Origin: Armatimonadota bacterium
GTDB taxonomy: Bacteria; Armatimonadota; UBA5829; DTJY01
Direction: 5' to 3'
Length of the DNA: 64,000 bases
Assembly: GCA_029907255.1 (NCBI GenBank)
Contig: JARYMF010000004.1
Location: 186,001 to 250,000 of the forward strand
The notes beneath the pieces were generated by a model. The model did not search any database and was not told the origin of the DNA. It saw only the letters and a list, made by a program, of their open reading frames with translations. Made by a program: the position numbers and the translations under genes. This document shows positions 23,393 to 50,748 of the stretch, piece by piece (within the stretch, counting starts at the first letter, position 1; each line of letters begins with the position of its first letter).

Positions 23393-23611
23393 AGCACCAC
23401 AGGATTGTCGAGAAACCCTGCTGTGTTCGTGATTTAGCCGAGGAAGTTTTGAGCCGACACTCAAAGTAAAAATGGGGCCTGATTCGGTTGTGGCGTGGCA
23501 GCCCCGCTCAAAATTTCTTTTGGGGAATCGCAAAGCAATCGTGAGGGCACCCGCCCGTGCTTTACGGGTTCAAAAACTTGTTAGGCACACGGCACCGTGG
23601 GGTTTCTAATC
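23393..23611 (+). ncRNA. ssrS: Candidate 6S RNA
   Basis: A ~215-base region with its own promoter, no ORF and a long rod-like fold. The ends pair: AGAAACCC (23411-23418) with GGGTTTCT (23600-23607), extended by GATT/AATC and, inward, by GTG/CAC pairs. Inside, AGTTTTGAGC (23445-23454) pairs with GCTCAAAATT (23506-23515), capped by a GGGG/CCCC stem; on the 3' side CCCGT/ACGGG forms a small hairpin. A closing stem, a large internal bubble and an apical stem in ~200 bases are the 6S RNA architecture, which mimics an open promoter and sequesters sigma-70 RNA polymerase. Placement just upstream of rarA fits what I recall for several Gram-positive lineages. It is not SRP RNA, tmRNA or RNase P by motif. 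No covariance search was possible. Confidence 0.55.
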
Positions 23612-23702: not shown

Positions 23703-25121
23703 ATGCGAACCTCTGCGGAAAACTCCCAGCCAATGGATTTGTTCGACCATGCGGCGGAGTCACATTCTGAGATGCCGCTTGCTGCTCGAATGCGTCCTCG
23801 GACGCTAGATGAATTCGTCGGCCAGGAACATATAATTGGACCAGGAAAGCTTCTCCGTCGAGCAATCGAAGCTGATGAGCTCCAATCAGCCATATTTTGG
23901 GGACCTCCTGGATGCGGGAAGAGTAGCCTAGCAGCTATTATTGCGAAGACTTCTAAAGCTGCATTCGAAAACTTTAGTGCTGTTACCTCAGGCGTCGCTG
24001 ACATCCGCAAGATAATAGAAAGAGCAAAGGAACGCCAGAAACTCCATGGCAGAAAAACAATCCTCTTCGTAGATGAAATACATCGCTTCAATAAAGCTCA
24101 ACAAGATGCGTTTCTTCCACACGTGGAAAATGGCACAATTGTGTTAATTGGCGCAACAACCGAAAACCCTTTCTTTGAAGTAAATTCGCCCCTAATCTCA
24201 CGTTCTCGCATATTCAGGTTTGAGCGCCTTACAGCAAAACAAATCGAACAGCTAATCCGAACAGCAATTGAAGATAAGGAGCGAGGCCTTGGCAATTGGA
24301 ATGTCGTTATAACTGACGAAGCAATGGCACACCTGGTTGATGTGGCAAATGGCGATGCTCGGGTCGCACTAAATGCTTTAGAACTAGCCGCTCTAACCGT
24401 CCCGCCAGACGAAAACGGGCGCCGGGTTGTGACCCTCCAGGTCGCCGAAGACGCCATCCAACAGCGAGCGCTAGCATATGACAAGGATGGCGATAATCAC
24501 TACGACGTAATCTCGGCGTTCATTAAGTCGATGCGCGGCTCAGACCCAGATGCCGCCCTTTATTGGCTAGCTAGGATGATTTACGCGGGCGAGGACCCCA
24601 GATTCATTGCCCGCCGAATTGTAATCCAAGCAGCCGAAGACATAGGGAATGCAGACCCCATGGCGCTTGTTGTAGCAACCGCTGCCGCTCATGCAGTAGA
24701 ATACGTCGGGATGCCAGAGGCACAAATCCCACTCGCCCAAGCTACTATCTATCTTGCATGTGCACCAAAAAGCAATGCCTCATACAAGGGTATAAACCGT
24801 GCCCTCAAAGACGTTGCAGAGAAAGAAACCAAGCCAGTGCCAATTCACCTTCGTGACGCAAACTACCGCGGAGCCAGCCAGCTGGGCCATGGAAAGGGAT
24901 ACAAATACCCCCATGACTTCCCAGATAATTGGGTCGAACAACAGTACATGCCCGACGGAATAAAGTCAGGCCCATATTACGAGCCGACCGACCATGGATA
25001 CGAAGCAAAAATAAAAGAAAGGCTGGAACAGCTGCGAAGCAAGCAAGAAGCTTCAAAGGAAGTTGCCGAAGACTCCATGGAAACAAACAAACCGCCAAAC
25101 CCTCAAAGCACTGAGCACTAA
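23703..25121 (+). CDS. rarA: Replication-associated recombination protein A (AAA+ ATPase)
   Basis: A 472-residue clamp-loader-like AAA+ ATPase (RarA/MgsA/WRNIP1 family) that acts at stalled replication forks. Walker A is GPPGCGKS (residues 67-74), Walker B LFVDEIHRFN (121-130), and the sensor region is GATTENPFFEV. The C-terminal tetramerisation domain follows (GSDPDAALYWLARMI, EDPRFIARRI, KGYKYPHDF). The start is uncertain: ATG 23703 or ATG 23733 (MDLFD, where many homologues begin); neither has a Shine-Dalgarno sequence. The gene sits after the 6S-like RNA and a heptamer repeat, and converges with glyS. Confidence 0.96.
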   Translation: MRTSAENSQPMDLFDHAAESHSEMPLAARMRPRTLDEFVGQEHIIGPGKLLRRAIEADELQSAIFWGPPGCGKSSLAAIIAKTSKAAFENFSAVTSGVADIRKIIERAKERQKLHGRKTILFVDEIHRFNKAQQDAFLPHVENGTIVLIGATTENPFFEVNSPLISRSRIFRFERLTAKQIEQLIRTAIEDKERGLGNWNVVITDEAMAHLVDVANGDARVALNALELAALTVPPDENGRRVVTLQVAEDAIQQRALAYDKDGDNHYDVISAFIKSMRGSDPDAALYWLARMIYAGEDPRFIARRIVIQAAEDIGNADPMALVVATAAAHAVEYVGMPEAQIPLAQATIYLACAPKSNASYKGINRALKDVAEKETKPVPIHLRDANYRGASQLGHGKGYKYPHDFPDNWVEQQYMPDGIKSGPYYEPTDHGYEAKIKERLEQLRSKQEASKEVAEDSMETNKPPNPQSTEH

Positions 25122-49246: not shown

Positions 49247-49801
49247 TTAAGTTCGCCGGATTGGCATTCCGGTAGCCGCCTGATATACCTCGTTGATTAC
49301 ACATTCCGGCATATGGTCTCGGCCGCAATGAGAGCAAACTTCAAGCGCCGTCCTATCATCCTTTATAACCGCTGTGATAAAATCCTCTAAAATTTGCACG
49401 AGCATCTCCCGACTAGCAGGTCTCATGCGGCCCAGTATTCGAGACATTTCGGTTACTCGCCGCAGTCTAATCTTCTCAGCAAGCTTAAACCCCTCATCTG
49501 TTAATTCAATCTCGGTTAGCCTGCGGTCGCGTGCATTTTCGCGGCGAGTGACCAAACCCTTCTTTACAAGACGATCAGCAAGCTGGCTCGCAGCCGAATA
49601 CGTCATCGAAAGCCCCTCGGCAATATCCTTAACAGAGCATACACCATGCTGGTGTATAAACTGAATCCCCTGCGCCAGTGCGGGAGTAATACCCAGACCA
49701 ACCTCGCGGAGTGGGCCAACTATGATTGCTTTGTGCAAAATCTCAGTAAAAAGATCAAGCACATGCTCAGCGTAGGCTATCGAGTCCTTTTTCATCAACA
49801 T
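49247..49801 (-). CDS. MarR-family regulator with a Cys-rich C-terminus
   Basis: A 184-residue winged-helix MarR-type repressor. The HTH runs from about 40 to 85 (GVCSVKDIAEGLSMTYSAASQLADRL) with the wing ENARDRRLTEIELTDEG (about 89-105). Unusually the C-terminal tail has C156-x2-C159-x3-H163-x3-C167 (CSHCGRDHMPEC), a compact metal- or cluster-binding motif; Cys55 sits in the HTH region. It is first gene of an operon with iscU, nfu and cysE, and a dyad (49829-49857) lies right after its own -10. It may sense iron, Fe-S status or cysteine, like IscR in other bacteria, but this is inference. ATG at 49801; a second ATG two codons in is also possible. Confidence 0.9.
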   Translation of the reverse strand: MLMKKDSIAYAEHVLDLFTEILHKAIIVGPLREVGLGITPALAQGIQFIHQHGVCSVKDIAEGLSMTYSAASQLADRLVKKGLVTRRENARDRRLTEIELTDEGFKLAEKIRLRRVTEMSRILGRMRPASREMLVQILEDFITAVIKDDRTALEVCSHCGRDHMPECVINEVYQAATGMPIRRT

Positions 49802-49828
49802 AATCCTCCGAAGGAACCCTGCAGAAGA

Positions 49829-49886
49829 TTAAGATACTTATTGATTTAGTTACTTAACTTATACCCAAAACTCTTTGTATTGTCAA
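49829..49886 (-). promoter_or_regulatory. Promoter and dyad operator of the marR-like/iscU/nfu/cysE operon
   Basis: Minus strand: perfect -35 TTGACA (49886-49881), 17-base spacer, -10 TATAAG (49863-49858). Directly downstream an imperfect dyad, TTAAGTAACT (49857-49848) and AGTATCTTAA (49838-49829), spans the expected start (~49851): 8 of 10 positions are symmetric, spacer 9 bases. This is where an autoregulating MarR protein would bind. Confidence 0.7.
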
Positions 49887-50059
49887 CCAAAACTATCAAA
49901 TTTTCTCAAAAAATCGCTGCCGTTGAGCCCAAATTCCTGGTTTAGGCTAAAGCCTATATTGGAAAAAGCATTCATGTCTTTGAGATGGACTGAATTTCAC
50001 CCACAAAGCTGCAATGCCGTTTTGCGTTTGAAACACCATAGAAAAGGGAGGTGATACAG

Positions 50060-50233
50060 GTGGAGGAAGAGGAGATGATGAAGCGCCTCGAAGAGGAAGT
50101 ACGCCGCGAGCTGGGAATCCAGCGAATCGGCCCGGAAATGACCACAGAGGAAGCTGGAAAGCTCGGTGGCTACATGGTTAAAAAACTGATCGAGCGCGGT
50201 GAGCGAGCCCTGCGAGAGGAAAAAGGAGAATAA
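50060..50233 (+). CDS. Alpha/beta-type SASP-like small protein
   Basis: A 57-residue protein with the two conserved blocks of alpha/beta small acid-soluble spore proteins, which coat spore DNA. The first block EEEVRRELGI aligns with the (Y/F)E(I/V)A-x-E-(F/L)-G-(V/I) segment; the residue where GPR protease cuts (Ala) is Arg here. The second block AGKLGGYMVKKLIERGE matches NGSVGGxMVKKLI-type DNA-binding helices, with Asn changed to Ala. N-terminus is unusually acidic (EEEEMM). GTG at 50060 with AAAGGGAGGTGA six bases upstream. Own terminator follows, so it is monocistronic. Whether the organism sporulates or uses it as a nucleoid protein is unknown. Confidence 0.7.
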   Translation: MEEEEMMKRLEEEVRRELGIQRIGPEMTTEEAGKLGGYMVKKLIERGERALREEKGE

Positions 50234-50271
50234 ATATACGACCATAGCCTCCTCTCGCATATGACTAGTTG

Positions 50272-50309
50272 AGGTAGTGGAGTGATAAACAGCTCCACTA
50301 CCTTTTATT
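50272..50309 (+). terminator. Terminator after the SASP-like gene
   Basis: Perfect 11-bp stem AGGTAGTGGAG (50272-50282) with CTCCACTACCT (50293-50303), 10-base loop, then TTTTATTT. Confidence 0.93.
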
Positions 50310-50316
50310 TCAAAGA

Positions 50317-50748
50317 TTAAAGTGCGTACACTTGTTCTGCAGTAAGGACGTTTATGCCTTTCGATAGCAGTGCTCTTATCCCCTCATCAATGTTTTCGAT
50401 TCGGAAAATTACAATAGCATCCTTCGATGATTTCTCGACAAACGCATACATATACTCAATGTTAATTTTTTCAGCCGCTAAAGCATTCAAAACACTTGCA
50501 AGGCCACCAGGACAATCAGGCACTTCAACGGCAATTACATCGGTCTCTTTCACAATAAAACCCTTATCCTGAAGCACTTTGCGGGCCTTTGCAATATCAT
50601 TTACAATCAATCGAAGTATACCAAAACCCGACGTATCAGCAAGCGAGAGCGCACGAATATTAATTCCCTCGGAGCCGAGTGCACCTGCCACTTCAGCCAA
50701 ACGGCCTGACTGATTTTCTAAGAATATCGAAAGCTGCTTGACTTTCAT
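50317..50748 (-). CDS. Tandem ACT-domain protein
   Basis: 143 residues made of two ACT domains (about 1-70 and 71-143): [21 protein letters not shown] and then [22 protein letters not shown] pairs bind amino acids, typically at dimer interfaces. Such stand-alone proteins regularly accompany phenylacetate-CoA ligase and indolepyruvate oxidoreductase genes and may sense an aromatic amino acid. Last gene of the iorA-iorB-paaK unit, 56 bases after paaK; ATG preceded by AAAGGAGG. No catalytic domain. Confidence 0.93.

Follow-up and report, generated by a model that had tools for sequence, protein, structure and literature searches.

A 57-residue protein encoded in the genome of an Armatimonadota bacterium belongs to the SASP sequence family and departs from spore SASPs on two counts: its GPR cleavage site is altered, and the GPR protease is missing from the genome. 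The presence of SASPs is usually taken to indicate an endospore former, and two papers present them as endospore proteins (PMC7985256, PMC8999374), spore SASPs binding DNA non-specifically through the minor groove according to the second (PMC8999374). The reading proposed here is that the gene, present in one copy, encodes an alpha/beta SASP family protein which works outside endospore formation, putatively as a DNA coat, and its chances appear evenly balanced.

The gene lies in the 64,000-nucleotide stretch of DNA that was analysed, referred to throughout as the window, and stands alone with its own Shine-Dalgarno run and terminator (Table 1). The start at 50060 is the likelier one, because an alternative GTG at 50051 falls within the Shine-Dalgarno run, whose GGAGG core is eight bases from the GTG. 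The corresponding run of the UBP13 SASP genes is AAAGGAGGTGAT. As evidence the strength of such a run is weak: the window contains GGAGGTGAT two times, a count reached by 11 of 100 shuffles. The rest of the interval marked in an earlier, sequence-only reading of this DNA, 3′ of the open reading frame, contains the intrinsic terminator, and in the same-genus relative the stem is retained and the loop altered. No sigma-70 promoter was found ahead of the gene.

Table 1. Features of the SASP locus, in window coordinates.
Feature	Position	Strand	Basis
MarR-family regulator, divergent, neighbour only	49247..49801	-	Domain match; same neighbour in G224, G222, G225
Shine-Dalgarno run GGGAGGTGAT, strong, ahead of GTG	50046..50055	+	Sequence
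SASP-family gene, 57 aa, GTG start, TAA stop	50060..50233	+	ORF list, PF00269, predicted helices
Intrinsic terminator, 13-pair stem then TTATTT	50271..50304	+	Folding z -4.72
ACT-domain-pair protein, convergent, neighbour only	50317..50748	-	Domain match

The surrounding genes also include NifU-like proteins and two genes whose sequences we take to be phenylacetate-CoA-ligase-like and indolepyruvate-oxidoreductase-like. An AT-rich block by the MarR start (CTTATTGATT.AGTTACTTAACTTATAC, window 49825-49865) is conserved in three related genomes, G224, G222 and G225. G225 has the MarR neighbour and no SASP gene, so the block belongs to MarR, likely as its operator or promoter and independent of the SASP gene, and a regulatory link between the SASP gene and the divergent MarR gene was rejected on that ground. 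Elsewhere in the window, a 6S RNA (23412-23607, plus strand, 88.5 bits) lies just ahead of an open frame at 23703, which presumably encodes an AAA+ ATPase-like protein.

The sequence-only reading had named a fruitless search with the Pfam SASP profile (PF00269) as its refutation. The search returned a significant match of 39.4 bits (E 5.7e-10) against a cut-off of 22 bits, with residues 3-51 placed on profile positions 8-59 of 59, and no other Pfam family matches the protein. Both SASP blocks are kept (E-V-R-R-E-L-G and E-E-A-G-K-L-G-G) and the N-terminus is acidic (MEEEE), as that reading had described, and the conserved loop Gly, helix-2 Gly pair and basic residue are all in place. None of the NCBIfam profiles matched the protein, and a phmmer search of PDB sequences returned SspC (2z3x) only, at an E of 0.056 that is not significant alone. 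An independent HMM, made from five plasmid or phage SASPs and holding no sequence of the Armatimonadota/UBP13 group, gave the window protein 33.9 bits, within a span of 29.1 to 35.3 bits for the protein and its relatives, and the best two of 2000 shuffles of the protein reached 18.0 and 7.8. The window has 1156 stop-to-stop frames, and the only one that this HMM matches at E<=10 is the frame holding the SASP gene. In PHROGs the protein falls into phrog_10367. This family, whose function PHROGs leaves unassigned, is the SASP family, taking both phage SPO1 gp34.25 at 1.7e-41 and a protein of a Ruminococcus phage at 3.5e-23. The Ruminococcus phage SASP (L012/L016 set) is matched by 61 phage records, and those listed among the 13 without names come from human faeces.

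An AF2 model computed from seven sequences and no templates (pLDDT 90.1, pTM 0.68) predicts a helix at residues 2-18, a loop at 19-28 and a second helix at 29-54. The top Foldseek match is the SASP-DNA complex 2z3x_A (prob 0.98, TM 0.68/0.69, rmsd 1.4 over 46 columns, E 0.25), followed by a second match with a prob of only 0.16. With VIA-align, 2z3x reached a Z of 6.6, and unrelated TIM9/TIM10 helix pairs reached 6.1 and 6.0; rows other than 2z3x were taken as common helix pairs, not relatives. The fold alone would not decide the family, because the TIM9/TIM10 pairs score nearly as high and the Foldseek E is 0.25; the predicted two-helix fold supports membership without proving it. The gene is under purifying selection, with dN/dS values of 0.069 against the G224 gene and 0.026 between two UBP13 genes, both rough because the sites are few; synonymous sites are saturated against G222 and L008. 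Taken together, the Pfam match, the second HMM and the dN/dS values rule out a chance match or mistranslation.

The window genome (G000) is a draft of 3.23 Mb in 33 contigs, 99.7% complete. At E<=0.001, PF00269 matches four of 291 Armatimonadota genomes, all above the cut-off: G000, G224 of the same genus, G222 of a sister genus, and the remote G210. Within the family of G000 the gene is present in three of five genomes, and it is dispensable, since the other two lack it, one of them (G225) with the paaK-ACT-MarR-NifU order kept and 172 bp in place of the SASP gene. The earlier impression that the neighbourhood is not that of Firmicutes holds, the relative sharing the neighbours (L006) being from Armatimonadetes. 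That the gene reached this assembly through a binning error, or that the match arose by chance, is scarcely credible; the genome is a fragmented draft, but the contig (C4) is 298 kb long, the score lies far above the shuffles, and the same neighbours accompany the gene in two other genomes, a neighbourhood common to three genomes that rules out binning error.

A profile (A2) run to find more divergent members matched seven of the 291 genomes. Two of the extra matches (G011 and G012) are false, lying within transporter-like proteins, and the third (G189) was set aside at 21.2 bits, slightly below the cut-off, for matching over the second helix only. The G189 protein (L024 1423-1635) is short and acidic and carries the second SASP helix block alone (MTVREAGHLGGEKVRDLIEKG); it reminds us of KGG-type stress proteins, with no such Pfam match. 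In G210 (L010 4839-5160, G210:C66), two SASP domains stand in tandem in one open frame, with 71.2 bits in all; the frame continues in a long C-terminal stretch that overlaps an opposite-strand open frame and may be untranslated.

Beyond Armatimonadota, a motif scan of 84,980 species genomes, a pattern search that may miss members with other motifs, yielded 373 stretches, five of them encoding relatives: two from Armatimonadetes and three from the UBP13 phylum. Each of the three UBP13 genomes searched has one SASP copy above the PF00269 cut-off. In the UBP13 loci examined, the SASP gene lies outside the Armatimonadota neighbourhood and precedes another gene, which we take from its sequence to be proA-like.

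Such a distribution could suit a gene that came in from a spore former, a plasmid or a phage and survives only as a functionless relic. The family is patchy in the phylum, phages and plasmids of spore formers do carry SASPs, and the absence in G225 is a clean one between the same neighbours. The low dN/dS values and the retained terminator stem nevertheless speak for a working gene, as does its retention in one genus, its sister genus and every UBP13 genome searched. Neither phage nor plasmid sequences match the protein closely, the best E values being 0.5 and 2, and none of 137 candidate stretches from viral contigs was confirmed. A relic is very improbable.

Seven domains of the Armatimonadota/UBP13 group, excluding the near-identical G224 protein, were compared with 15 distinct SASPs: one from a Pusillibacter plasmid, two from Bacillus plasmids, two from phages and ten from two SASP-rich genomes. 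The phylogeny of SASP-like proteins outside Firmicutes, called for by the sequence-only reading, splits the seven from the fifteen on a branch of 0.79 (57 columns, LG+G4; SH-aLRT 95.7, UFBoot 97), a result limited by the shortness of the alignment and by the few deep Bacillota sampled. One column, which we take to be part of the GPR cleavage site, holds Ala in all 15 comparison SASPs and, among the seven domains, Arg in five, Lys in one and Ile in one, so the Arg first remarked on in the window protein stands. The Ala noted in place of a conserved Asn is likewise present, but it is no special departure: among the 15 SASPs that column holds Asn in seven, Thr in three, Ala in two, Gly in one and a gap in two, and this variability rules out the substitution as the mark of a new kind.

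The window protein is acidic, with a pI of 4.98 and a net charge (K+R minus D+E) of -4, and the seven domains range from -1 to -4. In the comparison set, where some frames include untranslated leader, 11 of 15 frames lie at 0 to +3, two at +4 and the others at -1 and -2. The claim of DNA binding is weakened by this acidity relative to the comparison frames. The window protein also lacks the V-P segment that most comparison SASPs carry at the N-terminus. Both traits would be the mark of a repurposed SASP fold, one that does not coat DNA and instead binds protein or RNA through acidic helices, and the single-domain PF00269 scores of 35-45 bits, far under the 80.8 and 105.3 of two comparison proteins, point the same way. 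Repurposing is nonetheless rather unlikely: conservation across the comparison is strongest at the loop Gly, at the Gly pair of helix 2 and at the Lys/Arg four positions further along, the columns that spore SASPs keep as well, and the comparison SASPs are themselves near-neutral.

The sequence-only reading had suggested looking for GPR protease and SpoIVA, and neither turned up: the GPR profile matched none of the seven SASP-bearing genomes and none of 21 relatives, and the SpoIVA profile none of nine genomes. The Spo0A C-domain profile drew a blank in the same number (0/9), as did that of spore photoproduct lyase (SPL) in 13, with Bacillus subtilis as a positive control matching in every such search. 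The joint absence of sporulation genes is strong in G000, G224 and G222, which are 97-99.7% complete; single absences are weak in G210 (88%) and in the UBP13 trio, for which there is no completeness figure. Bacillota-type endospore formation is thus not supported in the SASP-bearing organisms.

It might still be argued that these bacteria use a divergent machinery to form resting cells, endospore-like or otherwise, the window protein being their spore SASP. The rarity of the family elsewhere lends this something, as only five of 386 genomes reached as UBP13 relatives (phyla not specified) match: the three UBP13 genomes and two with six matches each, presumably spore formers. Against it stand the missing GPR, Spo0A, SpoIVA and SPL, the loss of the GPR-site Ala and the single gene copy in place of the many of spore formers, and it is improbable. 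A non-endospore resting cell stage with a SASP is possible. The earlier alternative, between resting cells using SASPs and SASP-like nucleoid proteins, accordingly leans to the nucleoid-protein arm, while its other arm, as an endospore of known type, is left without GPR, Spo0A, SpoIVA and SPL.

The HU profile matches seven of nine genomes, including six of the seven that bear a SASP gene, and the SASP protein is therefore an addition to HU, not a substitute for it. In the proposed DNA coat, the two-helix protein would cover DNA non-specifically via the minor groove in the manner of spore SASPs and would protect the chromosome of a starved, dry or damaged cell alongside HU. In an organism lacking GPR the cleavage site would no longer be maintained, which would explain why its residue is not kept, and the protein would have to be released or degraded by some other route. 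A SASP that works, or has long worked, outside germination would be expected to show both changes, the site lost and the protease absent. Family membership, the modelled fold, the purifying selection and the change at the protease site are all consistent with a DNA protein of the nucleoid or of resting cells, although DNA binding, the timing of production and the protective role are all inferred.

Among known systems, the alpha/beta-type SASPs of Bacillota (SspA, SspB, SspC; 2z3x) share with the window protein its two-helix fold, its size, a gene of its own and the blocks E-x(5)-G and A/N-G-x-x-G-G-x-x-x-K/R. Unlike them, the window protein has the GPR-site Ala replaced, lacks the N-terminal V-P, is acidic, occurs in one copy and sits in genomes without GPR, Spo0A, SpoIVA and SPL. 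Two minor SASPs (L048 and L049), which we take to be SspF, resemble it in reading D-A-G for A-N-G and in a similar M-V-K helix, but have a four-column gap in that block, keep the GPR-site Ala and fall on a separate branch. The phage SASPs (SPO1 gp34.25, CampHawk, gut phages) likewise occur outside a spore genome; their known hosts, in contrast, are spore-forming bacilli, the two compared keep the GPR-site Ala, and the sequences are not close. HU and other nucleoid-associated proteins would share the proposed job, but their fold is unrelated and HU is present besides the SASP protein.

The open-licence PMC literature, where the term UBP13 retrieves plant, yeast and similar papers, yielded nothing on SASPs from either Armatimonadota or UBP13, and nothing of use on SASP-DNA contacts. 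According to Galperin 2012, Spo0A has not been observed outside Firmicutes, and several SASP genes are retained in some asporogenous clostridia (PMC3533761), so Firmicutes themselves offer a precedent for SASPs in organisms that form no spores. In another paper, a phage SASP is presumed to protect phage DNA (PMC3868849). The SASP-family protein of the present lineage, in which no trace of the endospore machinery was seen, may protect DNA in ordinary or resting cells. More tentatively, the seven domains could represent a distinct SASP subfamily, core to UBP13 and shared by a few Armatimonadota, which would serve in the nucleoid of never-sporulating cells and would have been either recruited from spore formers with loss of GPR control or handed down as a survivor from before the endospore. 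If true, a subfamily in phyla without Spo0A, SpoIVA and GPR would separate DNA coating from sporulation and bear on the origin of SASPs, and, with its altered GPR site, would allow natural variation to tell the SASP residues that serve DNA from those that serve the protease. A SASP gene alone in a metagenome calls for caution before sporulation is inferred.
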